Shown in pieces: positions 4,963 to 21,780 of a stretch of DNA of 64,000 bases. The translations under genes and the position numbers were made by a program. This stretch comes from Providencia stuartii (GTDB lineage: Bacteria; Pseudomonadota; Gammaproteobacteria; Enterobacterales; Enterobacteriaceae). The number at the start of each line of letters is the position of its first letter. The stretch's first letter is position 1. Below the pieces are notes generated by a model that had not been told where the DNA came from, did not search any database, and worked only from the letters and a program-made list of their open reading frames with translations. The stretch covers positions 3,782,001 through 3,846,000 of the forward strand of contig NZ_CP119546.1 in assembly GCF_029277985.1 (NCBI RefSeq), written 5' to 3'.

Positions 4963-5030
4963 GGTATTTACCTTAGAGAAATAAGGGGGGAGACTCCCGC
5001 GTTGCACGGGAATCTCCAAATTATTACCTA

Positions 5031-6434
5031 TTATTTGATTGGTTTTAATCTCGCTGTAAAATGCCTTAATACTGGAGGTTCATATTCAAAATCCAGTCCT
5101 TTTAATGTTGGAAACTTATCTTTAAGACCAATTAATGCATCCGCAATATAATCCATATGATCATTGGTATAGACGCGCCTTGCTATTGTTAAACGCATAA
5201 ACTCCATATCCGCATGTTTTTGTTTACCTGTTTCAGGATCTCGACCTAATAAAAATGAGCCAATTTCAACGGCACGAACCCCCGATTCAAGATACAGTGC
5301 ATTGATAACTGCTTGTGCAGGGAATTGATCCCCTGGGATTTGCGGAACCAATTTTTTACAGTCAACAAATACTGCATGTCCACCTGTAGGATATTGAATC
5401 GGGATCCCTCCTTCACGCAGCCGATCCCCTAGGTATTTGACTTGACCGATACGATAATGAAGATATTCTTCGTTAGCACCTTCTTCAAGCCCTTGTACCA
5501 TGGCAGCCATATCACGGCCCGCTAAGCCACCATAAGTGACAAACCCTTCCATTGGTACGCAACGTTGCCTTGCTAAAGTAAATATATTTTCATCATTCTT
5601 AATCGCCACTAAACCACCGATATTTAATAGCGGGTCTTTCTTCGCTGACATTGTTAACGCATCAGCGTATTTGTACATATCAAATATAATTTCTTTTATC
5701 GTTGCATTTTTATATTTTGGGTCACGCTCTTTAATAAAATAGGCATTTTCACAGAAACGTGCCGAATCCATCACGACAAAAATATTGTGTTGTTTTGCAA
5801 TCTCATACACTTCTTTAAGATTTGACATTGCAACCGGTTGACCACCCGCACTATTACAGGTTACGGTTGAAACAATAGCAACTACGTTTTCAGCCCCATA
5901 CTGAGCTATATTATCTTTCAACTTCTGAATATCAAAATTGCCTTTCCAGTCATCATAGGTTTCAGAGTCATAGGCTTTTTCCGTAACAATATTAATCGCT
6001 TTACAACCGTTTAACTCCACATGCGCTGCGGTTGTATCAAAATGGAAGTTCGAAATAAATACAGGCTTTTTGGCTCCTCCTTGTTGCCTTTTAACATTCA
6101 ACAATACAGGAAATAACATATTTTCAGCGCCACGTCCTTGGTGTGCAGGAATGGCATAATCATAGCCAAACATCTCTTTAACTTTATTTTTTAAATCGTA
6201 ATAGTTACGCGATCCTGCATATGCTTCATCACCCGTGATCATTGCTGCCCACTGGTGGTCACTCATTGCGTTAGTGCCTGAGTCAGTTAATAAATCGATA
6301 TAAACAGCGCTACTGGGTAATAAGAACGGGTTGTAACCTGCCTCTTTTAATGCAGCTTCCCGCTCTTCTCGAGATGGAATACGAATATTTTCAACCATTT
6401 TAATACGGAACGGTTCTACGATTCTTTTAGCCAT
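5031..6434 (-). CDS. tnaA: Tryptophanase (tryptophan indole-lyase)
   Basis: 467-residue PLP enzyme that splits tryptophan into indole, pyruvate and ammonia. It has the length and, as I recall it, nearly the exact N-terminus of the Proteus vulgaris enzyme. The PLP lysine is K266 in TMSAKKDP; other signatures are [21 protein letters not shown] (99-104), [11 protein letters not shown] (191-201) and [13 protein letters not shown]. Tyrosine phenol-lyase is a close paralogue, but the C-terminus ([22 protein letters not shown]) and the TnaC leader upstream mark it as tryptophanase. It is first in the tnaA-tnaB operon and 92 bases downstream of tnaC. It predicts an indole-positive organism. Confidence 0.95.
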
Positions 6435-6660: not shown

Positions 6661-6774
6661 ATTTGACATTATATATATAACAACCGAGCTGATATTTTAA
6701 TCACAAGTGTCATGATATTGTACATACATCACACTCTTTTTCATTTACCCAACAACATTATGAACTATATCACA
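6661..6774 (-). promoter_or_regulatory. tna promoter with CRP-like sites
   Basis: On the minus strand a TATAAT -10 box lies at 6673-6668, about 40 bases before tnaC. CRP-like sequences lie upstream. TATGA-N6-TCACA at 6759-6774 is the best. TGATA-N6-TCACA is at 6690-6705. A TCACA half site at 6729-6733 belongs to a weak site centred near 6725, about 62 bases before the expected start. tna operons are catabolite-repressed through CRP; which of the three is used cannot be read off. Confidence 0.55.
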
Positions 6775-7355: not shown

Positions 7356-8480
7356 CTATCTGGCCACACTGTATTTCACTAATCCGCCATTGTTTATTTC
7401 AATATCATTAGAATAACTATTCGCTAATTTAATAAAAGTATTATCGACATTATTGAAGAGTCTATTGAAATCACTAAGCTCAGCTCGATGAGTTATATTA
7501 CCGTCTGTTACGTTCATCAGTAAATATCCCCATTGACCTCGCCAATCTTCATTTAACAACACCGTTTGATTACTCACATGTAAACTATGCAAATGGTTGT
7601 ATCCATTTTCAGTGATCACGGAAAATTCACCATTATCATTAAATTGTAACAATGAAAATAGCTTACGTGATGGCTCTTGTGCAATCGCATAAATATTGCC
7701 ATTTGGTGATTGTTCAACTTCATTGATCCGTAACGGCAACCATTTATGTCCAACGACCTTTCCTTTATCAGTATCAAGGGTAATCTCAAGTGACCCCATG
7801 TCGTTACCATAGCTATACCAGATAATAAGTTCATTGTTTTGGGTTGCAAATGAGAAGTTAGAATTATCCGCAATTTCTTCTGGATAATAAGACTTAACTA
7901 AGTCACGTACATTAGCCAAATATTGCCATGTGCTACCTTTATCAAGCGTTTTAAAAATAGCTTCATTACTCACGGATAAATAGGTTTGATCATTTTGTGT
8001 ATGCAGTATTTTCCCCATAATTAACGTAGAAAATTGTTCTCCATATTTATCCTGCCAAGGCTGCATCTTCGTGATGGAATAATCAGATAAATTTAAAACT
8101 CGACGACCATCGTCAAAAAACAGTACACATTCCGTTTTATCACAGGCCGCATTATAAAAACTGTTATCCCCTTTATCTATATAATGTATTCCTGTCTCAT
8201 CAGCAAAAAGCACCTGATAATTATAGTCATGGTAAGGTAGATTATAGGAAGAGTAATAGGCTGTATTGCGGCTACTTTGCGCAATAATCAACATTCCTGT
8301 TTCTGTAGGGTACGATTTTAACCAATCAAAGTCTGCAATTTCCATCGCATTCGCTTGGGGGTTATCCTGCCATGTCCACCCTTGTGCATTACCTCGGAAA
8401 TGAAAAGCGATGGTTAAAATTACACAGATAATGAATGCTAACGTAATAATAATAAAATTCTTACTGAGAAATGGGTTCAT
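7356..8480 (-). CDS. Membrane-anchored protein of unknown function
   Basis: 374 residues, family not recognised. One N-terminal hydrophobic segment (about residues 8-28) is followed by a soluble domain rich in beta-strand-like repeats and aromatic residues (for example STWQYLANV, QSPNGNIYAIAQEP, LNEDWRGQWGYLLMN). The spacing of these repeats resembles a beta-propeller, and two nearby cysteines (CDKTEC) could form a disulfide. It is probably a periplasmic domain held by an N-terminal anchor (inference). It overlaps the upstream gene by the ATGA motif at 8477-8480, so the two are translationally coupled and probably work together. Confidence 0.6.
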   Translation of the reverse strand: MNPFLSKNFIIITLAFIICVILTIAFHFRGNAQGWTWQDNPQANAMEIADFDWLKSYPTETGMLIIAQSSRNTAYYSSYNLPYHDYNYQVLFADETGIHYIDKGDNSFYNAACDKTECVLFFDDGRRVLNLSDYSITKMQPWQDKYGEQFSTLIMGKILHTQNDQTYLSVSNEAIFKTLDKGSTWQYLANVRDLVKSYYPEEIADNSNFSFATQNNELIIWYSYGNDMGSLEITLDTDKGKVVGHKWLPLRINEVEQSPNGNIYAIAQEPSRKLFSLLQFNDNGEFSVITENGYNHLHSLHVSNQTVLLNEDWRGQWGYLLMNVTDGNITHRAELSDFNRLFNNVDNTFIKLANSYSNDIEINNGGLVKYSVAR

Positions 8481-9739
8481 ACACGTACCTCAGTAACATA
8501 ACCTGACTTTCCACGTTTTAAGCGTAAATAACGTAAATAGTATTGAGTTTGAAAATGTATTCGGCCACGTTGCGACACCGAAAAATAAATTGTTATGCAT
8601 AAAGCGCTCAAAAAGCCAATGCCTAATGAGATAGAGGATGCCATGCCAATAAACTCAATGCCATTATCCATCATATATTGCCAATCCCAACGATCCCAGT
8701 ATCCCCCTCTTTCCAAGATATCAGCGATATTCATCGACAAAACCATAAGGGTAAAAAATGCGATCATTCCCACCATGAATATCCACAATAAATAATAAAA
8801 ACTACGTTCTGGTGGCCAGCCCCCTCTACTTATTGAGTAAGCAAGCTGATCTTGCCGATTAAAAATACCAAAAACGATTTCTTCATTCTCAGCCTGACGT
8901 AATTTTTTATGGTAGACTTCAATGTCATCGCCTTGAGCCATAAATAAGCTATGGTTATTAAATACAGGTTCATTTACTGGTGTTATTACCGTAAATTGTT
9001 TTCTATCAATCTGTATTATTGTTATATTGCAAATTTCCTGAGGGCCTCGATATCTCATAATCGCACTCTGAAATGATTCCACTAAATTAACTTTGCCGCG
9101 AGTCAAATTAAGCTCATCCTCCTGTGACATTTTAGGTTCACGGACAGCCTTAACTTTCATTGGTTTTATCTTAGGATTACGTGTACCTAATATATTAATT
9201 TGTGGTGTGTTTTCAGGTGTAATTTGATATTGCCCAGCAATAACCTTATCTAACGCTTTTAATATCCATTTTCTACGTGGGCTAATAATATAGCAGATCT
9301 CTTTTATAACCAGAGCCACCATAACCACACCGCTAAATACGGCAAGACATGCCAATGACCCCAACAGAATGAGCCAAAAACTCTCTTCACCATAAGCAAA
9401 GCAAAAATAAGCTAATATTGAGAATGAGGATAATCCAAGCGCCCATAAAAGTGATTTTAACATTCCTCGATGAAAGCCAACCTCTCTATCAGGCTCCAAC
9501 CGCCCCTTTGTTTGATGAAACACCCAATTAATCCAATAACTCCCATCATTTAATCTTTCAGCACAGATCACCAGTTCATCACCTTGTTCGAGTTTTTTTA
9601 AAAAAACCTCACCGTGTTTAAAATCTGCAAGATTAAAAAAGAAGACGAGGTCAGACGCTATCAATCGAACCATTCCTGTCGGAATAACTTTTTGATAATC
9701 ACACTGAGATAAAGTGACATTAAAATATTGAACACCCAT
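8477..9739 (-). CDS. Membrane protein of unknown function with an internal duplication
   Basis: 420 residues, family not recognised. Four hydrophobic segments fall in two pairs (about residues 94-114 and 121-146; 313-335 and 364-388). Each pair follows a soluble beta-rich stretch that looks like a diverged copy of the other. Compare EVFLKKLEQGDELVICAERLNDG with EVYHKKLRQAENEEIVFGIFNRQDQ; each then runs through an R-rich turn into the first helix of a pair. The plan therefore looks like a tandem duplication of soluble domain plus hairpin. It is coupled to the gene at 7356-8480 by a 4-base overlap. No function is offered. Confidence 0.6.
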   Translation of the reverse strand: MGVQYFNVTLSQCDYQKVIPTGMVRLIASDLVFFFNLADFKHGEVFLKKLEQGDELVICAERLNDGSYWINWVFHQTKGRLEPDREVGFHRGMLKSLLWALGLSSFSILAYFCFAYGEESFWLILLGSLACLAVFSGVVMVALVIKEICYIISPRRKWILKALDKVIAGQYQITPENTPQINILGTRNPKIKPMKVKAVREPKMSQEDELNLTRGKVNLVESFQSAIMRYRGPQEICNITIIQIDRKQFTVITPVNEPVFNNHSLFMAQGDDIEVYHKKLRQAENEEIVFGIFNRQDQLAYSISRGGWPPERSFYYLLWIFMVGMIAFFTLMVLSMNIADILERGGYWDRWDWQYMMDNGIEFIGMASSISLGIGFLSALCITIYFSVSQRGRIHFQTQYYLRYLRLKRGKSGYVTEVRV

Positions 9740-10019: not shown

Positions 10020-10736
10020 ATGACTTCACAACCAGCATACAAGCAAATTCAATCTTATATTCTGCGTAGTATTGATTTAGGTATTTTTAAGCCTGAAACA
10101 CAGATACCCACAGAACTAGAACTGTGCGCACAATTTAATGTGAGCCGCATGACAGTGAATAAGGCCATTTCGGAACTGAGCCAAAAAGGCATACTGAATC
10201 GCATTGCTGGTAAGGGAACCTTTGTCGCCTCGCAGAAACACGAGCTGCCTGTCACAAAAGCATTTGATATTTTCGATGAAATTTCATTAAGCGGTAATAA
10301 ATATAGTGGTCATCAATTGCAACTCAAAGTCATTGCCGCTTCGGCTGAAATTGCTTTACAGCTCGGCGTGATGGAAGGCAGTGATATAAGCTATTGTAAG
10401 GTATTACATTTTGAAAATGATATTCCACTGATGCTTGAAGAACGCTATGTAAATCATGCCCTCGCACCTGATTTTGTGAAACAACACTTTGGTGATACTG
10501 AAACGCCGAGCGGCTACTTACAACGAAATTTTCCTGTCAGTGAGATGGAACATACCATTGAGGCCGCATTAGCGACTAAAGCGATTGCACAATCTTTATC
10601 AATTAAAGAAGGCTCACCGTGCTTACAGCTTAGCCGCCGTACGTGGACGGGTTCCACATTAATCAGCTATGTCCATATGATAACTGCCGGCTCGCGTTAT
10701 AAATTAAAGCTGCATTCACGTATTGATACACCTTAA
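10020..10736 (+). CDS. hutC: GntR/HutC-family transcriptional regulator
   Basis: 238 residues: an N-terminal winged helix (PTELELCAQFNVSRMTVNKAISELSQKGILNRIAGKGTFVA, about 29-70) and a C-terminal UTRA effector domain ending RTWTGSTLISYVHMITAGSRYKL. That ending matches HutC, the histidine-utilisation repressor that releases DNA on binding urocanate. It is convergent with the minus-strand cluster ending at 10846, which begins with urocanate hydratase, so it is the likely local regulator. TGTATATACA-like sequences upstream of hutU (20332-20461) fit a HutC operator. The assignment rests on sequence feel plus context; another UTRA-family ligand is possible. Confidence 0.75.
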   Translation: MTSQPAYKQIQSYILRSIDLGIFKPETQIPTELELCAQFNVSRMTVNKAISELSQKGILNRIAGKGTFVASQKHELPVTKAFDIFDEISLSGNKYSGHQLQLKVIAASAEIALQLGVMEGSDISYCKVLHFENDIPLMLEERYVNHALAPDFVKQHFGDTETPSGYLQRNFPVSEMEHTIEAALATKAIAQSLSIKEGSPCLQLSRRTWTGSTLISYVHMITAGSRYKLKLHSRIDTP

Positions 10737-10744
10737 TTTGATCA

Positions 10745-10774
10745 AAAAAAATGGGGCAAATCTATATGCCCCAA
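10745..10774 (-). terminator. Terminator of the ETF/ETF-QO transcript
   Basis: TGGGGCA (10753-10759) pairs with TGCCCCA (10768-10774). Read on the minus strand the stem is followed by eight T. It lies about 70 bases after the ETF-QO stop and just after the end of the convergent hutC gene. Confidence 0.75.
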
Positions 10775-10845
10775 AGCGACTGATAAAACAAGCACAACTA
10801 ACACCTGTTACTTATTGAACAGGAATACATCACAACAAATTTAAA

Positions 10846-12528
10846 TTACATACCTTGGTAAATTGGCCCTTCTCCCCCTTGTGGAGCTGTCCAACAAATA
10901 TTTTGTGTTGGGTCTTTAATGTCGCAAGCCTTACAATGTAGGCAGTTCTGCGCATTAATCTGCAACTTAGGCTGGTCTTCAATACTCACAATTTCATACA
11001 CTCCAGCGGGACAATAACGCGTCTCAGGAGCTGCATATTTAGGTAAATTCATCTTTGTCGGTACATGATTATCTTTTAATTTCAGATGACAAGGCTGGTC
11101 TTCCTCATGATTTGTATTCGACAAAAAGACCGACGATGGCTTATCAAAGGTCAGCACACCATCCGGCTTTGGATAATCTATTGGCTGAAAATTATGAGCT
11201 TCCTGTAAACATTCATGGTCGGCCTGTTTTAATTTAAGAGTCCAAGGGGTTCGCCCCTTTAGTAAAAGCTGTTCAGCACCAAATAATAAGGAGCCTAAAT
11301 ACAAGCCTTTTTTCATATAAGGTTTGAAATTACGTGTTTGATGTAATTCTCGATACAGCCAGCTACGCTCGAATTTTTGACGATACTCTGTTTTAAACCT
11401 TGCATAATCAATCACATCATCATTCATTGATTCAAACAATGCTTCCGCAGCAAGCGCACCGCTTTTCACTGCACAATGGCTTCCCTTGATCCGTGCTGCA
11501 TTTAAAAAACCGGCATCATCCCCTATTAATGCTCCACCTGGAAAACTCAATTCTGGTAATGCTGCCAATCCTCCAGCCACTAACGTGCGCGCACCGTAGC
11601 TAATGCGTTTACCACCTTTTAAAAAAGCACTGAGTGATGGATGCGTTTTGAGTCGTTGAAATTCATCAAAAGGTGATAAATAAGGATTTTCATAATTAAG
11701 GCCTACAACTAAGCCAATAGCAACGAGGTTTTCACCATAATGGTAAGCAAAGCCACCACCGTACGTACTGTTATCTAAAGGCCAACCAATTGAGTGAACA
11801 ACCAAGCCTGCTTGATGTTGTGGTTTAGGAATTTGCCAAATTTCTTTTAATCCTAACCCATAAGTTTGCTTTCCACGTCCACTGTCTAAATCAAAACGTT
11901 CTATAAGTTGCTTACCTAATTGGCCTCGACAACCTTCGGCAAAAAAGGTCATTTTAGCCAATAAGTTCATACCGGGCTGATACAGTGAAGTGGGGTTGCC
12001 TGATTTATCAAGCCCCATATCCCCGGTTGTTATACCAATAACGGTGCCTTCATCATCGTAGAGTATTTCCGTTGCCGCAAAGCCTGCAAATACGTCGACG
12101 CCAAGCTGCTCTGCTTGTGAGGCTAATGCCGCACACACTTGCCCAAGGCTACCAATTAAATTCCCACTATTTTTTAAGCTAGCGGGCAATAAAGCCAGTG
12201 GTAACCGGCTCGCTTTCTGTTCTTTTAATAACAAAAAGCGGTCTTCTGTTACGGTTGTCAGCTCACTTGGCAGCATCTGCTGCCAATTCGGTAATAATTC
12301 ATTCAAAGCTCGTGGATCAATAACCGCACCTGATAAGATATGAGCCCCTATTTCAGCACCTTTATCAATTAAACAAACAGATAACTCTTTGTTTTTCTCT
12401 GCCGCAAGTTGCTTTAGACGAATTGCAGCGGATAATCCTGCTGGCCCACCACCGACAATCAGGACATCAAACTCCATCGATTCCCGCTCGGGAGCCTCAC
12501 TTACATTGACACTATTGTCGATAGCCAT
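10846..12528 (-). CDS. Electron transfer flavoprotein:ubiquinone oxidoreductase
   Basis: About 560 residues, the length of classical bacterial/mitochondrial ETF-QO and longer than FixC (about 428). It has an N-terminal FAD fold (FDVLIVGGGPAGLSAAIRLK), the conserved IDKGAEIGAHILSGAVIDPRAL, and SYGARTLVAGGLAALPELSFPGGALIGDDAGFLN. A C-terminal [4Fe-4S] ferredoxin-like domain reads RYCPAGVYE then CLHCKACDIKDPTQNICW. It takes electrons from reduced ETF to the quinone pool at the inner membrane. The start is set at the ATG at 12528, preceded by AGGGGGG, 10 bases after etfA; an in-frame ATG at 12606 lies inside etfA and is unlikely. Enterobacteria usually have only the Fix-type system, so this enzyme points to a dedicated oxidative pathway. 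Confidence 0.9.
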   Translation of the reverse strand: MAIDNSVNVSEAPERESMEFDVLIVGGGPAGLSAAIRLKQLAAEKNKELSVCLIDKGAEIGAHILSGAVIDPRALNELLPNWQQMLPSELTTVTEDRFLLLKEQKASRLPLALLPASLKNSGNLIGSLGQVCAALASQAEQLGVDVFAGFAATEILYDDEGTVIGITTGDMGLDKSGNPTSLYQPGMNLLAKMTFFAEGCRGQLGKQLIERFDLDSGRGKQTYGLGLKEIWQIPKPQHQAGLVVHSIGWPLDNSTYGGGFAYHYGENLVAIGLVVGLNYENPYLSPFDEFQRLKTHPSLSAFLKGGKRISYGARTLVAGGLAALPELSFPGGALIGDDAGFLNAARIKGSHCAVKSGALAAEALFESMNDDVIDYARFKTEYRQKFERSWLYRELHQTRNFKPYMKKGLYLGSLLFGAEQLLLKGRTPWTLKLKQADHECLQEAHNFQPIDYPKPDGVLTFDKPSSVFLSNTNHEEDQPCHLKLKDNHVPTKMNLPKYAAPETRYCPAGVYEIVSIEDQPKLQINAQNCLHCKACDIKDPTQNICWTAPQGGEGPIYQGM

Positions 12529-12538
12529 GATCCCCCCT

Positions 12539-13489
12539 TTAAGCCAACGCTTTATCAAATTCAGGTAAGATCTCGAATAGATCACCCACAATGCCATAAT
12601 CAGCAACTTGGAAAATCGGTGCTTCTGGATCGCGATTTATCGCCACGATCACTTTGCTCTCTTTCATACCTGCTATGTGCTGGATCGCACCTGATATTCC
12701 TACCGCAATATAGAGATCGGGCGCAACGATCTTACCTGTTTGCCCAACTTGATAATCATTCGGTACATAACCTGCATCAACGGCAGCTCTCGATGCACCA
12801 ACCGCGGCCCCAAGCTTATCAGCGATAGTTTCAAGCAGCGCAAAGTTTTCACTCGAATTTAAGCCTCTACCGCCTGATATCACGACCTTAGCTGAGCTCA
12901 ATTCAGCGCGGCTCATTTGCGTTAATGATTGGCTTTTTAATTGAGATAACGGACTAAAATGATTAACAGTGCATTCTTCAATGGCAGCTGGACTTTGCGT
13001 TTCAGTCGTACCAGAAAAAGCGGAACTACGGATTGTTAATACAACTTGCTGACCATTATTTTGTACCGTTGCTAATGCGTTACCTGCATAAATAGGACGC
13101 ACAAAAGTCTGTGCATTAATCACTTCAGTAATGTCAGAGATTTGTGCAACGCCTAACGTTGCTGCAACACGTGGAGCGATATTTTTACCGTAGGTTGTGG
13201 CAGGAAATACTAAATGGCTATAATTTTCAGCAACCGCAATCACGGCATCAGTCACAGTTTCAGCAAGCGGGTGAGCGAGCTCACTGTTATCTATGAGGAT
13301 CACGTTTTCAACACCCGCGATCGTTGCCGCTTGCTCTGCCACCTGCTTACATTGATGTCCTGCAACAAGCAGATGCAGCTGTCCTTGCCCTGATAACATC
13401 TGTTTTGCGGCAGTCACACTATGGTACGTTGAAGATTTAATTGTTTGGTTATCGTGTTCAACCATAACTAATATGGATAATTGGCTCAT
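12539..13489 (-). CDS. etfA: Electron transfer flavoprotein alpha subunit
   Basis: 316 residues. The N-terminal domain (SILVMVEHDNQTIKSSTYHSVTAAKQM) is followed by the C-terminal FAD-binding domain: GRGLNSSENFALLETIADKLG, VGASRAAVDAGYVPNDYQVGQTGK and PDLYIAVGISGAIQHIAGM, the standard ETF-alpha signature. With EtfB it forms the soluble FAD carrier that is reduced by acyl-CoA dehydrogenases and oxidised by ETF-QO. It sits 14 bases after etfB and 10 before the ETF-QO gene in one transcript. The sequence style is of the classical beta-oxidation ETF group rather than FixB. Confidence 0.93.
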   Translation of the reverse strand: MSQLSILVMVEHDNQTIKSSTYHSVTAAKQMLSGQGQLHLLVAGHQCKQVAEQAATIAGVENVILIDNSELAHPLAETVTDAVIAVAENYSHLVFPATTYGKNIAPRVAATLGVAQISDITEVINAQTFVRPIYAGNALATVQNNGQQVVLTIRSSAFSGTTETQSPAAIEECTVNHFSPLSQLKSQSLTQMSRAELSSAKVVISGGRGLNSSENFALLETIADKLGAAVGASRAAVDAGYVPNDYQVGQTGKIVAPDLYIAVGISGAIQHIAGMKESKVIVAINRDPEAPIFQVADYGIVGDLFEILPEFDKALA

Positions 13490-13503
13490 GATGATTCCCC
13501 CGA

Positions 13504-14259
13504 TTAAATGACTTCTTTTGCTTGTAATTCACTGACTAATGCATTGACATCATTAAACAATGTGCACTGGCCTGATCGCTTTTTCGGTTCAGTCACGGTC
13601 AATATTTTTACCTGCCCTAATGGGGTAAAATTCATTTCAGAGATGTCTTGTATTTCAAGCGGCTTTTTCTTCGCTTTCATAATATTAGGCAGTGTTGCAT
13701 AGCGAGGTTCATTCAAACGTAAATCGGTTGTTACGACCGCAGGTAGCGGTAAAGACAGCGTCTCTAAACCACCATCAATTTCACGTGTGACCTGTAATGA
13801 TGAGCCTTCAACTTCAATGGAAGACGCAAAGGTTGCTTGCGCGCATTTAAGTAATGCCGCTAGCATTTGCCCTGTTTGATTACAATCATTATCAATCGCC
13901 TGTTTACCGAGCAGAATTAAATCAGGCTGTTCAGCGATGACCACTTGCTGCAATAAACGAGCAATATCGAGAGGTTCTAGCACTAAATCATGAGGTCTTT
14001 GCATTAAAATTGCGCGATCAGCTCCGATTGCCATCGCACTACGCAACGTTTCTTGGGCGCTGTTATCCCCTATTGATACCACAACAATTTCATTCACTTT
14101 ACCAGCTTCTTTCAGGCGGACAGCTTCTTCAACTGCAATTTCATCGAAAGGATTAATCGCCATTTTGACATTCGCTAATTCCACACCGGAGCCATCCGCT
14201 TTCACACGAACTTTAACGTTGTGATCAATAACTCTTTTAACAGCCACTACAATTTTCAT
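13504..14259 (-). CDS. etfB: Electron transfer flavoprotein beta subunit
   Basis: 251 residues, classical ETF-beta. It opens MKIVVAVKRVIDHNVKVRVK, then NPFDEIAVEEAVRLKE, the AMP/FAD-contact region LGKQAIDNDCNQTGQMLAALL and VTREIDGGLETLSLPLPAVVTTDLRLNEPRYATLPNIMKAKKKPLE. The last stretch includes the recognition-loop region that docks on acyl-CoA dehydrogenases. E. coli FixA looks quite different (from memory, MKIITCYKCVPDEQDI), so this is an oxidative ETF. It heads the etfB-etfA-ETF-QO set, 135 bases after the NCS1 permease gene. Confidence 0.93.
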   Translation of the reverse strand: MKIVVAVKRVIDHNVKVRVKADGSGVELANVKMAINPFDEIAVEEAVRLKEAGKVNEIVVVSIGDNSAQETLRSAMAIGADRAILMQRPHDLVLEPLDIARLLQQVVIAEQPDLILLGKQAIDNDCNQTGQMLAALLKCAQATFASSIEVEGSSLQVTREIDGGLETLSLPLPAVVTTDLRLNEPRYATLPNIMKAKKKPLEIQDISEMNFTPLGQVKILTVTEPKKRSGQCTLFNDVNALVSELQAKEVI

Positions 14260-14394
14260 AAAGACTCCTAATTACTCTCTGCCAGAAGATGTTTTTCAGG
14301 CTGAGCGGATCCTTAGCAGTGATTATTTCACTGCTAATATTCCCGCTTATTTTTGTTTTAACGTTATTTGTTACTTATATTTATTTGCTATGGG

Positions 14395-15837
14395 TTATGC
14401 ATTTGATGATGGCAGTATCAATCTGTCCGCTACTGACATTGGCCATATTTTAATTGCTGCATAGTAAATAATACTGGTAGCCACTAAGCCAACAATCCAT
14501 GAGATATCAACGCCCCCCAGTTGCTCAACCAAAGGCCCTGTATAGAAACCGGTTGCAATAAAAGGCAGTTGAATGAGGACGCCAATCACATAGGTAATAA
14601 TGCCCACTTTATTCCAACGCCCATAACGACCATTAGGATTTGATAATTCAGGGACGTCATAACGTCCTTTCGTTACCCAGTAGTAATCCACAAGATTGAT
14701 TGCACTCCATGGTGTAAAGAATGCGAGTAAAAACAGTAAGAAGGCTGAAAATAGTTTTAAGAACGAGTGTTGTCCAGCAAGACCGAGAACCGTCGAAAAA
14801 CTCACCATCAAGATGATGAAAAACAACCTTTGACCACGAGAAATTTGCTGCTTACCACGGAAGCCACAGAAAATAGCCGCCATTGACATAAAACTGCCAT
14901 ATGCATTAAGTGCAGTGATCGTCACCTTACCAAAGAAAATACTGATATAGAGTAATGCTGCGATCAGTCCAGTACTACCAAGACCAACAATATAGGCAAC
15001 TTCATGACCCGCAAATGCATTACCTGCTAGGGCCGCCGCAAAGACCCCTAAGATCATTGATGCTTGAGTTCCAATAACCGTTCCCGAACCTACCGCTAAA
15101 AATGCTTTAATGGTTGGTGTTTTTGTCGGTAGATAACGTGAGTAGTCCGCAACATAAGGACCAAATGCAATTTGCCATGATGCCGACAAAGACATCGCGA
15201 GTAAGAAGTTAGTCCAACTGAAATGGCGATTTTCCAATAAAACCGACACATCATTCATATAGAATAAGCGGAAGAATAGGTAGAAGAAGGCGATCACACC
15301 AATCACACTCGCCGCTTTACCTAACATGTGAATGATTCGATAACCACAGATCGTGATTGCGATGATCACGGCACCAAAGATCAAAATTCCTACCCAATCA
15401 CTGACATTCAGTAATTGCCCAACAGCTTGCCCTGCCAATACGGTACCACTAGCAGAGAAACCGACGTACATCATGCACACTAACAGTATTGGGATCACCG
15501 CACCATATACACCAAACTGAACACGACTTGAGATCATTTGTGGCAGTCCGAGTTTTGGCCCTTGCACGGCATGCAATGCCATAACAGCTCCCCCCAACAA
15601 TTGGCCAATAAATAAACCAATTAATGACCAAAATACATCACCTCCTAACACGACAGCCAATGCCCCTGTCACGATAGCCGTAATTTGTAAGTTGGCACCG
15701 AACCAAAGGGTAAATTGGCTCGATAATGTCCCGTGGCGTTCCGACTCAGGAATATAGTCTATTGATCGTGCTTCGATTAAAGGAACATTATCCTGCCGAT
15801 GTTTTTTGTCTGCGGTTATGTCGTTTGAAACTGTCAT
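14395..15837 (-). CDS. NCS1-family permease (cytosine/purine/hydantoin type)
   Basis: 480 residues with about 12 hydrophobic segments. NCS1 signatures are the N-terminal IPESERHGTLSSQFTLWFGANLQ and the helix-6 region SWQIAFGPYVADYSRYLP. It closes with NLVDYYWVTKGRYDVPEL. NCS1 carriers move small nitrogen heterocycles with Na+ or H+. As I recall, the Pseudomonas urocanate permease of the hut locus belongs to this kind of family. Its place between the hutU-CoA-transferase-dehydrogenase genes and the ETF genes therefore suggests that it imports an imidazole acid such as urocanate or imidazolepropionate (inference). Cytosine, allantoin or another heterocycle remains possible. Confidence 0.82.
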   Translation of the reverse strand: MTVSNDITADKKHRQDNVPLIEARSIDYIPESERHGTLSSQFTLWFGANLQITAIVTGALAVVLGGDVFWSLIGLFIGQLLGGAVMALHAVQGPKLGLPQMISSRVQFGVYGAVIPILLVCMMYVGFSASGTVLAGQAVGQLLNVSDWVGILIFGAVIIAITICGYRIIHMLGKAASVIGVIAFFYLFFRLFYMNDVSVLLENRHFSWTNFLLAMSLSASWQIAFGPYVADYSRYLPTKTPTIKAFLAVGSGTVIGTQASMILGVFAAALAGNAFAGHEVAYIVGLGSTGLIAALLYISIFFGKVTITALNAYGSFMSMAAIFCGFRGKQQISRGQRLFFIILMVSFSTVLGLAGQHSFLKLFSAFLLFLLAFFTPWSAINLVDYYWVTKGRYDVPELSNPNGRYGRWNKVGIITYVIGVLIQLPFIATGFYTGPLVEQLGGVDISWIVGLVATSIIYYAAIKIWPMSVADRLILPSSNA

Positions 15838-16102
15838 GGTAACTCCTCTTTAAGCAAGGCTGGCTTAAAGAATGAACCAATTTGTCATAATGGTTGTTGT
15901 AGGGTACAGCCATTAGACTCTAAGTCGGACGTTATTATGTTTTTATAAACAGCCCGCCATTAAAAATTGAAATACATTCTTAAACCTGGTTGTTGTTGTG
16001 TTTTTAATTCCATGATCCTGTTATCAGGTCGTTCATCCTATTGCAGTTTTTACTCATTACTGGTGGATCCTGTCCATCCACCAGCGTATTCATCTTTCAC
16101 GA
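15838..16102 (-). promoter_or_regulatory. Gap between the dehydrogenase and permease genes
   Basis: 265 bases. CTGGTGGAT (16060-16068) and ATCCACCAG (16076-16084) make a 9-bp stem just after the dehydrogenase stop. It has no T-run, so it may attenuate or protect the mRNA rather than stop it. TGTAGGGTACA at 15898-15908 resembles a HutC half-site pair with a 3-base instead of 2-base spacer. The permease-etf genes may thus have their own regulated promoter; this is tentative. Confidence 0.35.
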
Positions 16103-17242
16103 TTAAACCGAATCTAAAACCGCTCGCGAAATAATGATCTTTTGAATTTCTGAAGTGCCTTCAAAAATTCGTAAAATGCGTGCATCACGTACATAACGTT
16201 CTAAAGGTAAATCACGAATATAACCGTAGCCACCATGCAGCTGTAATGCCGCATCGGTCACAAAGCCAGCGCACTCCGCGGCAAATAATTTTGCTGTTGC
16301 GGATTGCAAACTAAAACGCTCTCCTGAGTCACGGCACTCTGCCGCATGCCAAGTCAGCATACGCGCTGCTTCTAACTGTGTGTGCATATCTGCAAGACGC
16401 CACTGGGTGCCTTGATAAGCCGCTAATGGCTTTTTACCGATTTGACGTTCTTTAACCCAATTTAAAGCACATTCCATCGCTGCACGAGCGATCCCTAATG
16501 ACGTGGCTGCCACTTCAACACGCCCTTTATCTAAGACTTCCATGGCAGTATGGAAGCCTTTATTTTCTTCGCCTAATAGGGCCGACTCAGGCAACCAGCA
16601 GTTCAATGCAAGCTCATAGATTGTACTTCCACGTAGCCCCATGGTTTTTTCTGGGGAAGAAAACTCAACACCCTCAGTACCTTTAGGGATCATAAATGCA
16701 CTGATACCACGGGCACCGGCTTCTGGGTTTGTTTTGGCATATAAGACAATAAAATCAGCTTCTTTAGCATTGGTAATATAATGTTTATTTCCGCGAATTC
16801 GCCAGCCTCCATTTTCTCGGGTAGCGACAGTGCGCATATCTGCTGGATTTGATCCTGCTGCGGGTTCTGTCAGACCAAAAGCGCCTAACATCTCACCACT
16901 TGCCGCTTTAGGTAACCAATACTGCTTTTGCTCCTCGGTACCCCCTATTAGGATCGAATCTGTTGCAAGGAAATGAGCCGTTAACGCGGATGAAGTTGAT
17001 GCGCAAGCGGCCGCTACGGCTTCGACGATCATACTCATCGCAATACTACCAATGCCGAACCCGCCATATTGCTCAGGTAAATTGATCCCCCAACATCCCA
17101 TCTCCCCTAGAGCAGCCAAACTTTCCGCACAAAAAGTTTCTGTCTCATCATAACGTTGTGCATTCACTTGCAGAATGTCACGACAAACCTTTTCAACAGC
17201 ATCGACAATTGCTTGTTCTGTCTCATCTATTTGAAAGCTCAT
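16103..17242 (-). CDS. Acyl-CoA dehydrogenase
   Basis: 379 residues, the normal length for a short/medium-chain FAD-dependent acyl-CoA dehydrogenase. Family signature 1 is GAFGLTEPAAGSNPADMRT, signature 2 is QLHGGYGYIRDLPLERYVRDAR, and the catalytic base is E361 in RIFEGTSEIQ. It makes an alpha,beta-double bond in an acyl-CoA and hands the electrons to ETF. It overlaps the CoA-transferase gene by 4 bases (ATGA), so the two are translated together, and etfBA and ETF-QO follow in the cluster. With urocanate hydratase in the same operon, imidazolepropionyl-CoA, which would give urocanyl-CoA, is a chemically sensible substrate (inference). Butyryl-, glutaryl- or carnitine-type acyl-CoAs are alternatives. 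Confidence 0.9.
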   Translation of the reverse strand: MSFQIDETEQAIVDAVEKVCRDILQVNAQRYDETETFCAESLAALGEMGCWGINLPEQYGGFGIGSIAMSMIVEAVAAACASTSSALTAHFLATDSILIGGTEEQKQYWLPKAASGEMLGAFGLTEPAAGSNPADMRTVATRENGGWRIRGNKHYITNAKEADFIVLYAKTNPEAGARGISAFMIPKGTEGVEFSSPEKTMGLRGSTIYELALNCWLPESALLGEENKGFHTAMEVLDKGRVEVAATSLGIARAAMECALNWVKERQIGKKPLAAYQGTQWRLADMHTQLEAARMLTWHAAECRDSGERFSLQSATAKLFAAECAGFVTDAALQLHGGYGYIRDLPLERYVRDARILRIFEGTSEIQKIIISRAVLDSV

Positions 17243-18423
17243 TGTATTGCCTCCGCATTTTTAATTGTTATATTGGCTGATTTATAAGCATGATTGGCTT
17301 CGCCCAAGCGAGGTGCTCTTTGCATGGCTCGCGGTTTGCTACCATTAAAGAAAACAGGTTGAGATACTAACGGGGTTCCACCATCATCAAGGTAAGTGAG
17401 AACTTGACGAGCCTTTGCATGTTCGCTTTGTGTCGCTTGCTGCAAATTTTGGATCGGTGAAGCAGGCACCCCTGCGTTTAGCAGTTGCTCACACACTTCT
17501 TCAACCGTTTTTTGTGATGTCCAATGTTCGATTTCTTTTCTAAGATCCGCGTGGTAAAGGGTTCGCGTTGGATCATCTTTATAGCGAAGATCATTGCGTA
17601 GTTCAGGCCGCCCCATACACTCACAGAAACGTTGGAAAAGCTTTTCACTGGCAATAGCAATAACAACTTGCCCATCTCGTGCTTGATAGGTATCAAAAGG
17701 TGTTGAAACAGGATGACGATTTCCCACTAAGCCCGGCGCTTGACCGTGTGCAAATAGATTTGATAGTCCTGTCAGCTGCATACTCAACAGCACATCGACC
17801 ATCGCAACATCAATATATTGAGCATGTTCTTGGTGAGCTTCTCGCGCAAACAAGGCGCTGCTGATCGCCCAAGCAGCAAAAATGCCAGCACAGACATCCC
17901 CTATCGACTCCCCACTACGTGTTGGGCCTGTTTCAGGAAACCCCGTTACACTCATTAATCCTGACATTGCTTGTGCAACAATGTCATAAGCAGGATAGTT
18001 GGCAAGTGGACTATCTTGCCCAAAGCCAGATATGCTAGCATAGATAAGTCTAGGGTTATGCTGTTTCAAACTGTCAAAATCAATTCCCAATCTTGCCGTA
18101 ACACCCGGTCGAAAATTTTCGACGACCACATCACTCTCTTTCACGAGTTGATATAAGATCTCTAGGTCGTTTTCGGATTTAAGATCAAGCTCAATACTGC
18201 GCTTTCCTCGATTGATCAGCCCGTAATAAACACTTTCACCCTCAATAAAGGGACCTAAATGACGACTGTCATCACCATGGTCAGGCACTTCTATTTTGAT
18301 CACTTCAGCACCTAGGTCAGCCATCATGCCTGTACAATAAGGCCCTGCAAGCACACGACTGAGATCGATCACTTTGATCCCTGATAATGGCCCTGCTCTT
18401 TTTTGTGTTGACACCATTTTCAT
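17239..18423 (-). CDS. Type III (CaiB/BaiF) CoA-transferase
   Basis: 394 residues, family III CoA-transferase. Signatures are GIKVIDLSRVLAGPYCTGMMADLGAEVIKIE (15-45), DVVVENFRPGVTARLGID (98-115), YASISGFGQ, and GESIGDVCAG with the catalytic aspartate D176. These enzymes pass CoA between two carboxylic acids without ATP. The start ATG at 18423 is preceded by AAGGA. It lies between hutU (52 bases upstream) and an acyl-CoA dehydrogenase that it overlaps by 4 bases. That layout suggests that its acid and its CoA donor are the saturated and unsaturated forms of one compound, as CaiB works between carnitine and crotonobetaine (inference). Confidence 0.88.
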   Translation of the reverse strand: MKMVSTQKRAGPLSGIKVIDLSRVLAGPYCTGMMADLGAEVIKIEVPDHGDDSRHLGPFIEGESVYYGLINRGKRSIELDLKSENDLEILYQLVKESDVVVENFRPGVTARLGIDFDSLKQHNPRLIYASISGFGQDSPLANYPAYDIVAQAMSGLMSVTGFPETGPTRSGESIGDVCAGIFAAWAISSALFAREAHQEHAQYIDVAMVDVLLSMQLTGLSNLFAHGQAPGLVGNRHPVSTPFDTYQARDGQVVIAIASEKLFQRFCECMGRPELRNDLRYKDDPTRTLYHADLRKEIEHWTSQKTVEEVCEQLLNAGVPASPIQNLQQATQSEHAKARQVLTYLDDGGTPLVSQPVFFNGSKPRAMQRAPRLGEANHAYKSANITIKNAEAIQ

Positions 18424-18474
18424 ACTGATATCCTTATAAAACGAGCCAGCCTCAAATAAGGCTGGCCAAAAGCG

Positions 18475-20142
18475 CTACTTGACCATCGGTAAGTTCAGCC
18501 CTTGCTGTTTTGCGCAGTTAATGGCAATGTCATAACCCGCATCAGCATGACGCATCACCCCAGTCGCAGGGTCGTTATGTAAAACACGAGCCAGACGTTT
18601 GTCTGCGGCATCTGTCCCATCACAAACAATGACCACACCAGCATGTTGGGAAAAGCCCATTCCTACACCACCACCATGATGCAGGCTGACCCATGTTGCG
18701 CCTCCCGCGGTATTCAATAACGCATTTAATAGAGGCCAATCAGAGACCGCATCCGAGCCATCTTTCATTGATTCTGTTTCGCGGTGTGGACTTGCCACAG
18801 AGCCTGAATCCAAGTGATCACGGCCAATGACAATAGGCCCTTTCAACTCACCATTTTTTACCATTTCATTAAACGCACGACCGAGTCTTTCACGATCTTT
18901 TAAACCAACCCAACAAATACGTGCTGGCAAACCTTGAAATGCAATGCGTTCACGAGCCATATCCAGCCAATTATGCAGATGCTTATCGTCAGGAATTAAC
19001 TCTTTTACTTTTTGATCTGTTTTATAGATATCTTCAGGATCGCCAGATAAAGCAACCCAGCGGAATGGCCCGATGCCTTCACAGAATAGAGGGCGAATAT
19101 AAGCCGGAACAAAGCCCGGAAAATCAAAGGCATTACTGATACCTTCATCTTTAGCCATTTGACGAATGTTATTCCCATAGTCAAATGCCGCTGAGCCGCG
19201 TTTTTGCATGGTTAACATCGCATCAACCTGTACCGCCATACTTTTCTTAGCCGCTTTCGTGACTTCAGCCGGTGCTGTTTTTTGCTTCTCACGCCACTGT
19301 GTTAATGTCCAGCCTTGAGGTAAATAACCATGAACAGGGTCATGTGCACTCGTTTGGTCGGTAACAGAGTCAGGAATAATGTTACGTTTAACTAATTCGC
19401 TATAGACATCGGCTGCATTTCCTAATAAACCGACAGAAACAGGCTTGCCGTCATTTTTGGCTTGTTCAATATATTGCAATGCCTCATCCAGGGATGTGGC
19501 TTTTTTATCGACATATCGAGTTCTTAGGCGAAAATCGATACGACTTTCATCACATTCAACGGCAATCATGCTAAAACCTGCCATTGTCGCTGCTAAAGGT
19601 TGAGCGCCCCCCATTCCCCCGAGACCACCGGTCAGGATCCAACGACCCGCAGGGTTACCCTTAAAATGCTGTTTAGCTAAAGAAACAAAGGTTTCATAGG
19701 TACCTTGAACAATGCCTTGTGAACCTATATAGATCCAAGAACCCGCGGTCATTTGACCGTACATCATCAAACCTTTTTTATCTAGCTCATTGAAATATTC
19801 CCAATTTGCCCAATGAGGGACAATATTTGAGTTAGCAATTAATACACGAGGTGCATCCGGATGAGTTGGAAAAACACCAACAGGTTTGCCGGATTGCACA
19901 AGTAAAGTTTGATCATCTTCGAGTGTTTTTAATACCTCTAAAATTTTGTCATAACATTCCCAATCACGAGCTGCGCGACCAATTCCACCGTACACGACTA
20001 AGCTTTGTGGATGTTCAGCCACATCAGGATCTAAGTTGTTTTGGATCATGCGGTACACGGCTTCAGTGAGCCAGCTTTTACAAGTTTTCTCGCTGCCACG
20101 TGGAGCGCGGATAACACGTGTAGAGTCAGTACGGTTTAGCAT
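18475..20142 (-). CDS. hutU: Urocanate hydratase (urocanase)
   Basis: 555 residues, full length. It converts urocanate plus water to 4-imidazolone-5-propionate with a tightly bound NAD+ as electrophile. The NAD-binding stretch is [19 protein letters not shown] (171-189), other conserved parts are [15 protein letters not shown] and GHDHLDSG-like [14 protein letters not shown]410 in [12 protein letters not shown] lines up with the essential cysteine of Pseudomonas urocanase. It is the first gene of the minus-strand cluster. No histidine ammonia-lyase (hutH), imidazolonepropionase (hutI) or hutG is present in the window, so here urocanase is tied to a CoA-transferase and acyl-CoA dehydrogenase instead of to hutH. 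Confidence 0.96.
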
Positions 20143-20331
20143 TGCTGTATCCTCTATTTCTTTATTTTACTTAACATTTTTACAACAATAAATGATATTT
20201 ATAATGAGTCATTACTTATCACGTAAAAATCCCTTTTGGATAAAAAACGCATACAATCAAATTGTTAGTGGTATTTTCAGTGCTGGTTTTTATCCACTCC
20301 GGAGGATTCGTCTTCGACTTGCCTTTAAATA

Positions 20332-20366
20332 TATATACATTTAATTCACAAAGTATATACATTTAA
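20332..20366 (-). promoter_or_regulatory. Paired HutC-like direct repeats
   Basis: TATATACATTTAA occurs twice, at 20332-20344 and 20354-20366, exactly 22 bases (two helical turns) apart. Toward hutU each reads TTAAATGTATATA, containing most of the TGTATATACA-type core that I recall for HutC operators. The helical phasing suggests two dimers bound to one face of the DNA. Confidence 0.5.
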
Positions 20367-20451
20367 ATTTGAATTTTTGTATAAAGATTAGATAGAAAGA
20401 GGATGAACAACTATACAACAAAGGTTAACTCGCTATTTATTCACAACAAAA

Positions 20452-20461
20452 TGTATAGACA
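20452..20461 (-). promoter_or_regulatory. HutC-like operator core
   Basis: TGTATAGACA at 20452-20461 differs from the palindrome TGTATATACA at one base. It lies about 50 bases downstream (toward hutU) of the CRP-like site at 20499-20514, a layout that would suit an activator-plus-repressor promoter. Confidence 0.45.
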
Positions 20462-20498
20462 ATTGAACACTTCTCTAGACATAAACAAATAGCTGAAA

Positions 20499-20514
20499 TG
20501 CGAAGTGCTTCACA
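20499..20514 (-). promoter_or_regulatory. CRP-like site
   Basis: Read on the minus strand it is TGTGA-AGCACT-TCGCA, one mismatch from TGTGA-N6-TCACA. It is 364 bases before hutU, so it needs a long leader if it serves hutU; it could also serve the divergent gene at 20782. Confidence 0.5.
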
Positions 20515-20781: not shown

Positions 20782-21780
20782 GTGAGAGTTTCAAATAAAG
20801 CAGTCATGGATATTACAACGTTAAACAATAGAGCTGTTGAGCCTAGAAAAATATCTAAGATCACTGCACAAAATTTATTTAGCTTCCCTTTTTTTAAAAA
20901 GAAGCCACAACAACATATCCCCCATCTCAATGAAATATTTTATCCACCAGCAAGCTATTTTAGCCATATCACTCAGGCGGTAGAAACACAACAACACCGA
21001 ACCCTCTCTAGCCAATCTATTTCTGCATTGTGTCGGTCTGAAAACTATCGATACACCATAAAACCAGAAAACTACTCATTTAAAATAATATCTTTTAAAA
21101 TCAATGAAAAACCACCCATTTCATTCGTAAGCGATATTCAGCGATTTCGCTTAAATTATATTACTGATAAAAATCAAACAATTAGACTCACAACATCACA
21201 AGATGTTGCCAATCGTTTTTCCAGCAACACATTACCTATTATGAAATTTATTGAGCAAACTTATCAAGACGATCTGCGAAAGACACTGGATAAACTCATT
21301 ATTGATAAATCTCAATATAAACTACTCTGCCTAGATGGAGTGAATAATCATGAGATAAACATAGGGAAAGTCGCCTCATCTAACGCTATCGATAGTGAGT
21401 TTGGTTTTCAAGGATTAAGAAATCTCTCTTCAATATTAGACATGGATGTAGAGAATATTATCCAAACATACCGAGTGCTTGAAGACCAAAATAAATTACA
21501 AGAAATGCCCGTTAAGGTGCTAGTCGATCATCTCTTATTAAGGGATCTTAATAATGGTTCTGTTTTATTACTCAAACAAAAGTTAGCGGATATTTATGAA
21601 ACGACCTATCAAGTGACCAGTAATAAATGCTTTGAACTCATCAATATTAAAAATAAGCAATCGTATTCAAATATCAAAATAAAAACGTCAACAGCGAGTG
21701 TTATTACTCTGTATAAAAAGAAAAATCAATTTATCATGAAGTATGTTAATGCCCCATTAACGGTCAACATTAAACGTTAA
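20782..21780 (+). CDS. Protein of unknown function
   Basis: 332 residues, family not recognised. The GTG start at 20782 has AAGGAA about 9 bases before it; an in-frame ATG follows at 20806. There is no signal peptide and no membrane segment. The N-terminal 60 residues are polar and rich in Ser, Asn, Gln and Pro, with a basic patch (FPFFKKKPQQH). The rest is mixed alpha/beta and rich in Asn, Lys and Ile. It is more AT-rich than the flanking metabolic genes and stands alone between divergent and convergent neighbours. This look would suit a horizontally acquired or secreted-effector gene, but I have no motif to support that. Confidence 0.55.
   Translation: MRVSNKAVMDITTLNNRAVEPRKISKITAQNLFSFPFFKKKPQQHIPHLNEIFYPPASYFSHITQAVETQQHRTLSSQSISALCRSENYRYTIKPENYSFKIISFKINEKPPISFVSDIQRFRLNYITDKNQTIRLTTSQDVANRFSSNTLPIMKFIEQTYQDDLRKTLDKLIIDKSQYKLLCLDGVNNHEINIGKVASSNAIDSEFGFQGLRNLSSILDMDVENIIQTYRVLEDQNKLQEMPVKVLVDHLLLRDLNNGSVLLLKQKLADIYETTYQVTSNKCFELINIKNKQSYSNIKIKTSTASVITLYKKKNQFIMKYVNAPLTVNIKR

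Follow-up and report, generated by a model that had tools for sequence, protein, structure and literature searches.

A cluster of eight genes in a 64,000-nucleotide stretch of Providencia stuartii DNA (the whole of it, from contig NZ_CP119546.1, is called the window here) is in all likelihood a catabolic operon that oxidises imidazole propionate (ImP) to urocanate, as judged from sequence comparisons. The cluster occupies positions 10020-20142 and consists of hutC2 on the plus strand, opposed in orientation to hutU2, caiB, acd, ncs1, etfB, etfA and etfQO on the minus strand. An earlier note, made from the letters of this DNA, had proposed that such a set converts ImP to urocanate. The proposal is now supported by conserved linkage to histidine utilisation (hut) genes, by the type of electron-transfer flavoprotein (ETF) that the cluster encodes and by HutC-like boxes; its chemistry is predicted.

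ImP would enter the cell, probably through the NCS1 permease, and the family III coenzyme A (CoA) transferase CaiB would move CoA from urocanyl-CoA onto it, giving imidazolepropionyl-CoA and free urocanate. The acyl-CoA dehydrogenase (ACAD) would then strip the alpha and beta hydrogens, with Glu361 as base, and remake urocanyl-CoA. The alpha hydrogen is too weakly acidic for an ACAD in the free acid, but acidic enough in the CoA ester. CoA would cycle in this way, a trace of another CoA ester sufficing as starter, and since CaiB would swap CoA between the two acids, the cycle should need neither ligase nor thioesterase; none is found among the eight cluster genes. Electrons would pass from the ACAD through EtfAB and ETF:ubiquinone oxidoreductase (ETF-QO) to the quinone pool. 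HutU2 would hydrate the urocanate, the housekeeping HutI and HutG would complete the route to glutamate, and HutC2 would act on a pair of boxes ahead of hutU2, keeping the operon repressed while both urocanate and ImP are absent. ImP is reportedly called a 'nonmetabolizable inducer' of histidine-degrading enzymes in Aerobacter in the title of a 1965 paper by Schlesinger and Magasanik.

Support comes from the company that the caiB-acd pair keeps outside Providencia. Scanning genome contigs with a CaiB alignment returned 282 relatives; the analysis kept the best 80, whose neighbours were identified by tblastn around each caiB. Loci in which the pair adjoins hut genes occur in Gammaproteobacteria, Alphaproteobacteria, Actinomycetota and Bacilli. 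All 11 Providencia loci in the scan carry acd and hutU (one of them the broken locus of genome G010). At 60% identity or more there are 37 further loci, from Pragia, Citrobacter, Pseudomonas, Acinetobacter, Wohlfahrtiimonas and Ignatzschineria; every one has acd within 3 kb, and within 10 kb 27 have a HutC-like regulator or one of the genes hutU, hutH and hutI, with hutU itself in 20. When only loci with at least 9 kb on both flanks are counted, a hut gene is present within 10 kb in 18 of 18 and hutU in 13. The ten hut-less loci all have the start of caiB within 650 bases of a contig end, perhaps because assemblies break in near-identical copies of hutU. Among 32 loci at 45-55% identity (Nocardiaceae, Gordonia, Bacilli, Bosea, Pseudorhodobacter and others), acd lies within 3 kb in 28 and a hut gene nearby in 23, or in 18 of the 25 with full flanks.

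A separate draw of 198 Pseudomonadaceae genomes, centred on G429, yielded a caiB ortholog (E <= 1e-130) in 15. Four of these carriers (G428, G429, G431 and G432) were known from the earlier scan and 11 were new; in all 15 a gap of 28-50 bp separates a hutU match from that of caiB, the adjacent hutU being incomplete in two (G534 and G621). A sixteenth caiB, the second in G429, sits at a contig end with no hutU alongside. The earlier note had named a transferase-dehydrogenase pair normally far from hut genes as the pattern that would overturn its proposal; these 15 carriers and the 18 full-flank loci display the opposite. As a control, 165 CaiB-family matches were counted in 24 chosen carrier genomes and, among the matches listed, only the cluster caiB lay within 10 kb of hutU, in 19 of the 24. 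Public annotation of two Paracoccus plasmids gives hutF (formimidoylglutamate deiminase), hutI, hutH, hutG, a CoA transferase, an acyl-CoA dehydrogenase, hutU and an amino-acid ABC transporter in one place. These are two of six plasmid places examined; one other (Mesorhizobium) has the pair with an annotated hutC, and in three (Rhizobium, Agrobacterium, Sodalis) the transferase is present but no ACAD. A class-wide draw of 369 genomes found caiB in the nearest genome only, a result probably due to the small number of genomes drawn from each family. It marks caiB as uncommon in the class and is no proof of confinement to Providencia. In a maximum-likelihood tree of CaiB, the window protein and the loci at 60% identity or more form one clade of 49 rows (100/100), next to the actinobacterial rows (98/91), and the hut-linked rows from Bacilli and alphaproteobacteria fall further out, mixed with hut-less rows. 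Escherichia coli Frc and CaiB sit on very long branches, and their placement is unsure.

It is conceivable that the CoA pair belongs to the general metabolism of short-chain acyl-CoAs and that the hut genes are mere neighbours. The source names of homologues lean that way, being generic or pointing elsewhere (3-sulfinopropanoyl-CoA desulfinase; CoA:oxalate CoA-transferase). However, the linkage crosses phyla, HutC boxes accompany the pair, and caiB and the cluster hutU are absent together from one Providencia genome (G020), so that we regard coincidence as extremely improbable.

Within the genus, a survey of 24 Providencia genomes (caiB matches at E <= 1e-80) found caiB in 23, full-length at 81-100% identity in 22 and partial with a stop in G010. 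The same 22 genomes have two full hutU genes, a cluster copy at 93-100% identity and a housekeeping copy at 74-76%; the cluster hutU of G010 is in two pieces, and G020 has the housekeeping hutU only and no caiB. Gene order was examined at 17 of the 23 carrier loci: hutC is followed by etfQO-etfA-etfB-ncs1-acd-caiB-hutU in all 16 besides G010, which keeps the same order with broken genes. The gene hutH occurs in all 24 genomes (its copy broken in G010), and hutG scores over its cut-off in 10 of 10 genomes examined. In G001, the nearest relative genome used for comparison (89% of sampled words in common with the window), a hutG over its cut-off lies off a main hut locus that reads hutI-hutC1-hutU1-hutH-permease and stands away from the cluster. 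Given these housekeeping genes in relatives, free urocanate released by the cluster could therefore be finished to glutamate. The claim of the earlier note that hutH, hutI and hutG are absent thus stands for the cluster and probably fails for the genome, as relatives carry all three at other loci: hutG is not among the cluster's eight genes, and tblastn found neither hutH nor hutI in the window (hutG was not sought there). In G010, which is P. stuartii NCTC11800, the cluster hutU, caiB and etfQO and the main hutH are all broken. We considered joint decay of the cluster in this strain and dropped the idea, since hutH is also broken, completeness is 94% and sequencing error is as likely.

The families of the enzymes agree with the proposed steps, and all the genes named in the earlier note were found in place by open reading frames (ORFs), Pfam and NCBIfam. 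HutU2 (18475..20142, minus strand) is a second urocanate hydratase (TIGR01228, 979.5 bits against a cut-off of 375). CaiB (17239..18423, minus), the proposed urocanyl-CoA:imidazolepropionate CoA-transferase, has a full-length family III (CaiB/BaiF) domain (PF02515, 408 bits over residues 13-376). Its Asp176, which we take to be the acyl-carrying catalytic residue, is Asp in 88 of 88 aligned rows, E. coli Frc, YfdE and CaiB included. The ACAD gene (acd, 16103..17242, minus) overlaps caiB by 4 bases, just as the earlier note had it, and encodes the N, M and C domains of the family; the product is the proposed imidazolepropionyl-CoA dehydrogenase. The column of Glu361, presumably the catalytic base, holds Glu in 79 of the 80 rows that have a residue there (81 rows overall, one gapped), and in the same alignment E. 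coli CaiA has Gly. The pocket motif TAH[FY]L, which lacks one residue by comparison with four solved relatives, is present in the gammaproteobacterial rows (among those listed), in 13 actinobacterial rows, in 4 of 5 from Bacilli and in 4 of 4 from alphaproteobacteria. We treat it as a lead only, because two of these four alphaproteobacterial rows (L122 and L127) have no hut gene nearby. Another ACAD, P0094, is 81% identical to that of the window and carries the source label Salmonella enterica subsp. diarizonae; it possibly represents a sporadic carrier or a misassigned contig.

It is possible in principle that the substrate is another imidazole acid, such as an N-methyl or thio derivative of ImP, that also yields a product resembling urocanate. 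HutU2 is a mere 76% identical to the housekeeping HutU1 of G001, the thiourocanate and S-methyl-thiourocanate hydratases are HutU paralogues, and loci in Bacilli have a second, more diverged HutU. However, HutU2 reaches the urocanate hydratase score given above and stays below the cut-offs of both thiourocanate hydratase models (NF058530, 699.9 against 930; NF058531, 718.7 against 880), which speaks against a thiourocanate hydratase, and the two Paracoccus stretches have a single annotated hutU together with hutH, hutI, hutG and the pair. We therefore consider a different imidazole acid unlikely.

For ImP itself, the ncs1 gene (14395..15837, minus; PF02133) supplies a candidate route of entry: of the 37 loci outside Providencia with at least 60% identity, 34 have an NCS1 gene no further than 10 kb from caiB, and the permease likely takes up ImP, urocanate or both, a cargo that we guess at. 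The protein HutTu (PA5099) is probably also of the NCS1 family. HutTu is named as the urocanate transporter of Pseudomonas aeruginosa (PMC12977541).

The remaining genes bear on the direction of electron flow. EtfB (13504..14259, minus; PF01012) and EtfA (12539..13489, minus; PF01012 and PF00766) are far better matches to structures 1t9g/1efv (312 bits for EtfA) and 1efp (285 bits for EtfB, 308 for EtfA) than to 5ol2 (170 bits for EtfA), the CarD structure 6fah (98 bits for EtfB) or 4kpu. We take 1t9g/1efv to be human-type ETF, 1efp to be Paracoccus-type and the last three to be bifurcating. EtfQO (10846..12528, minus) is a full-length ETF-QO with a 4Fe-4S domain (PF05187 and PF21162; 2gmh, 631 bits). 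By similarity, then, the cluster encodes a non-bifurcating EtfAB with its quinone oxidoreductase. A Fix-type assignment finds no footing, EtfA scoring 127 bits against a cut-off of 549 with the FixB model PRK03363 (EtfB was not scanned with NCBIfam and FixX was not sought) and ETF-QO scoring 71 against 610 with the FixC model PRK10157. This supports the view of the earlier note that the ETF is oxidative and not Fix-like.

ETF-QO genes were counted in 44 genomes (five very small genomes of the family left out). Each of the 22 intact Providencia carriers has exactly one, at the cluster; in G010 it is split at the cluster. G020 has none, and a search of 7 genomes from the family's other genera gave none either. 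One each was found in Pragia, two Citrobacter, Wohlfahrtiimonas and Ignatzschineria, on the caiB contig and within about 8 kb, and in all eight of the Pseudomonas (six) and Acinetobacter (two) genomes there is an ETF-QO outside the cluster. G429 has two copies, one of them on the caiB contig about 18 kb away. Hosts without a further ETF-QO thus have this enzyme supplied by the cluster.

Could the enzymes run the other way, with CaiB loading urocanate and the ACAD reducing urocanyl-CoA, so that urocanate serves as an electron acceptor as crotonobetaine does in the Cai/Fix system? The gene logic resembles caiA-caiB with fixABCX, the best-scoring curated model for the ACAD is acryloyl-CoA reductase (386 bits, under its cut-off of 640), and Providencia can live anaerobically. 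Yet the ETF is of the human/Paracoccus type and comes with a full ETF-QO (FixX was not sought), the pair is carried by genera of obligate aerobes, a urocanate-consuming hutU sits inside the operon, and hutI, hutG and hutF stand alongside the pair in Paracoccus. A reductive role is thus very unlikely in our view, and the ETF type, the ETF-QO, the HutC operators and the aerobic carriers favour oxidation into the quinone pool.

HutC2 (10020..10736, plus strand) is a GntR/UTRA regulator by Pfam and passes the HutC model TIGR02018 (244.3 bits against 220); it does not reach the second HutC model, NF011575 (178 against 424), and is 37% identical to the housekeeping HutC1 of G001. It is likely a repressor that would respond to urocanate or ImP. 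The HutC operator consensus is given as TGTA-N2-TACA (PMC12977541). Two boxes, each with one mismatch to it and 22 bp apart, lie on the minus strand upstream of hutU2: box 1, TGTATATACT, at 20352..20361, and box 2, TGTATATATA, at 20330..20339. A relaxed scan found both unchanged in all 21 Providencia stretches upstream of hutU2, where they fall in the longest run of unvaried columns in the 21-row alignment; in the window, the 300 nt preceding hutC2 gave no HutC-like box in the same kind of scan. Beyond Providencia, 33 of the 37 loci could be scanned for the exact consensus in the 250 nt ahead of hutU or caiB, and 19 have it, against 0.14 expected in first-order random sequences. A box before hutU is expected anyway; in 8 of the 19 loci it stands directly before caiB, and hutU is the gene that follows it in the rest. 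In G001 an exact box is present at the promoters of the main hutU1 and of hutI. None was found at the Providencia cluster in the window scan, whose sole exact match, at 6719-6728, we rejected as a cluster operator: it is off-cluster, and 1.10 such matches are expected by chance.

Several observations weigh against the oxidation of ImP as the function of the cluster. Five of the 18 full-flank loci (L068, L090, L091, L097 and L100) have a HutC-like regulator only, with no hutU within 10 kb, and 7 of the 25 full-flank loci at 45-55% identity (four Streptomyces, Planosporangium, Mycolicibacterium and a Rhodospirillales metagenome-assembled genome) have no nearby hut gene. The hut-linked CaiB loci form no single exclusive clade, and hut-linked ACADs from Actinomycetota reach no more than 39-44% identity to that of the window. 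The Providencia twin boxes deviate from the Pseudomonas consensus, and 14 of the 33 loci scanned outside Providencia lack an exact box within 250 nt. Host need and cluster content match imperfectly, as some Pseudomonas clusters (L083, L089, L091 and L092) include etfB or etfA despite an ETF-QO elsewhere. The acryloyl-CoA reductase model describes a reductive enzyme, and the cargo of the permease is a guess.

A wider scenario can be put forward tentatively, and we would not call it probable: that there is a urocanyl-CoA branch of histidine metabolism in which the CaiB group with an ACAD oxidises ImP and its relatives beta-oxidise the urocanate side chain, bypassing HutU. CaiB relatives of 50-53% identity occur at L140:7407-11869, L142:7407-11872 and L145:7457-11857 (Rhizobium, Agrobacterium and Sodalis), next to a histidine-ammonia-lyase-like enzyme just below the HutH cut-offs, a 3-hydroxyacyl-CoA dehydrogenase and an enoyl-CoA hydratase. 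The Rhizobium locus also has a UTRA regulator above the HutC cut-off. It is possible that these three sets beta-oxidise the urocanate side chain. A different arrangement is seen in Bacillus norwichensis (L131:9959-19205), where caiB, acd, hutU, a second diverged hutU, a regulator, etfB and etfA follow one another; its more diverged HutU-like protein still exceeds the cut-off for urocanate hydratase and is 49% identical to that of the window.

At the level of transcription, the seven minus-strand genes run head to tail and from hutU2 to etfQO probably form a single transcript, closed by a hairpin with a T run at 10773-10743. This element (10743..10773, minus; stem GGGGCA, fold -16.5 kcal/mol, z -3.9) lies after etfQO and is likely the operon's intrinsic terminator; hutC2 is situated past it on the opposite strand. 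A second hairpin, in the hutU2-caiB gap (18444..18467, minus), has a 10-pair stem and a weak T tail (-17.8 kcal/mol, z -2.5); it is possibly a partial terminator or an mRNA-stability element and might govern how much HutU2 is made relative to the CoA enzymes. The etfQO ORF is listed as 10846-12606 with a TTG start at 12606; a start at 12528 (residue 27) is likelier. The window as a whole has a GC content of 41%. Between hutU2 and the liv genes, a 332-residue ORF (20782-21780) has no NCBIfam match (Pfam was not run on it); it is present in G001 and in none of the 16 other Providencia loci examined. On the other side of the cluster lies a tryptophanase-family gene (5031-6434), adjoined by an ORF (3715-5019) that resembles an amino-acid permease by eye, and two ORFs beyond the tryptophanase-family gene (7356-9739) have no Pfam match.

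ImP is a gut-microbial product that has been linked to insulin resistance, diabetes and heart failure; the papers on it consulted here concern its formation. If the proposed function is correct, the cluster would provide sink genes that tell which bacteria remove ImP, and with them a marker for metagenomes, and it would correct database names such as the desulfinase and oxalate transferase labels mentioned above. It would also give genes to an older physiological report: a 1973 paper by Coote and Hassall is said to concern, by its title, imidazolylpropionate degradation by Pseudomonas testosteroni. Among the titles and abstracts listed from the open-licence literature, none reports genes for ImP breakdown, which is weak evidence as most subscription journals fall outside that scope, and no paper there mentions the CoA esters under six names. 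A 2026 preprint on ImP control (PMC13320830) deals, in the part available, with ImP formation and competing histidine routes and names no ImP consumer there.

Among known systems, the P. testosteroni work of 1973 shares with the cluster the bacterial breakdown of imidazolylpropionate, but it is pre-genomic physiology. The caiTABCDE-fixABCX system of E. coli is alike in having a family III CoA-transferase that shuttles CoA, a partner of the ACAD family and an ETF. In contrast to the cluster, with its human/Paracoccus-like ETF and true ETF-QO, that system is reductive, uses a Fix-type ETF with FixC and FixX, and has no hut genes. The canonical hut operon (hutH, hutU, hutI, hutG and hutC) has in common with the cluster HutU, HutC, apparently the type of operator, and urocanate as the node, whereas the cluster lacks hutH, hutI and hutG and adds the CoA pair and an ETF chain. 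Finally, the urocanate reductase UrdA handles the same pair of compounds, urocanate and ImP (PMC10882135). UrdA is a single flavin enzyme that reduces free urocanate, whereas the cluster would work on CoA esters, with an ACAD and the quinone pool, in what we propose to be the opposite direction.

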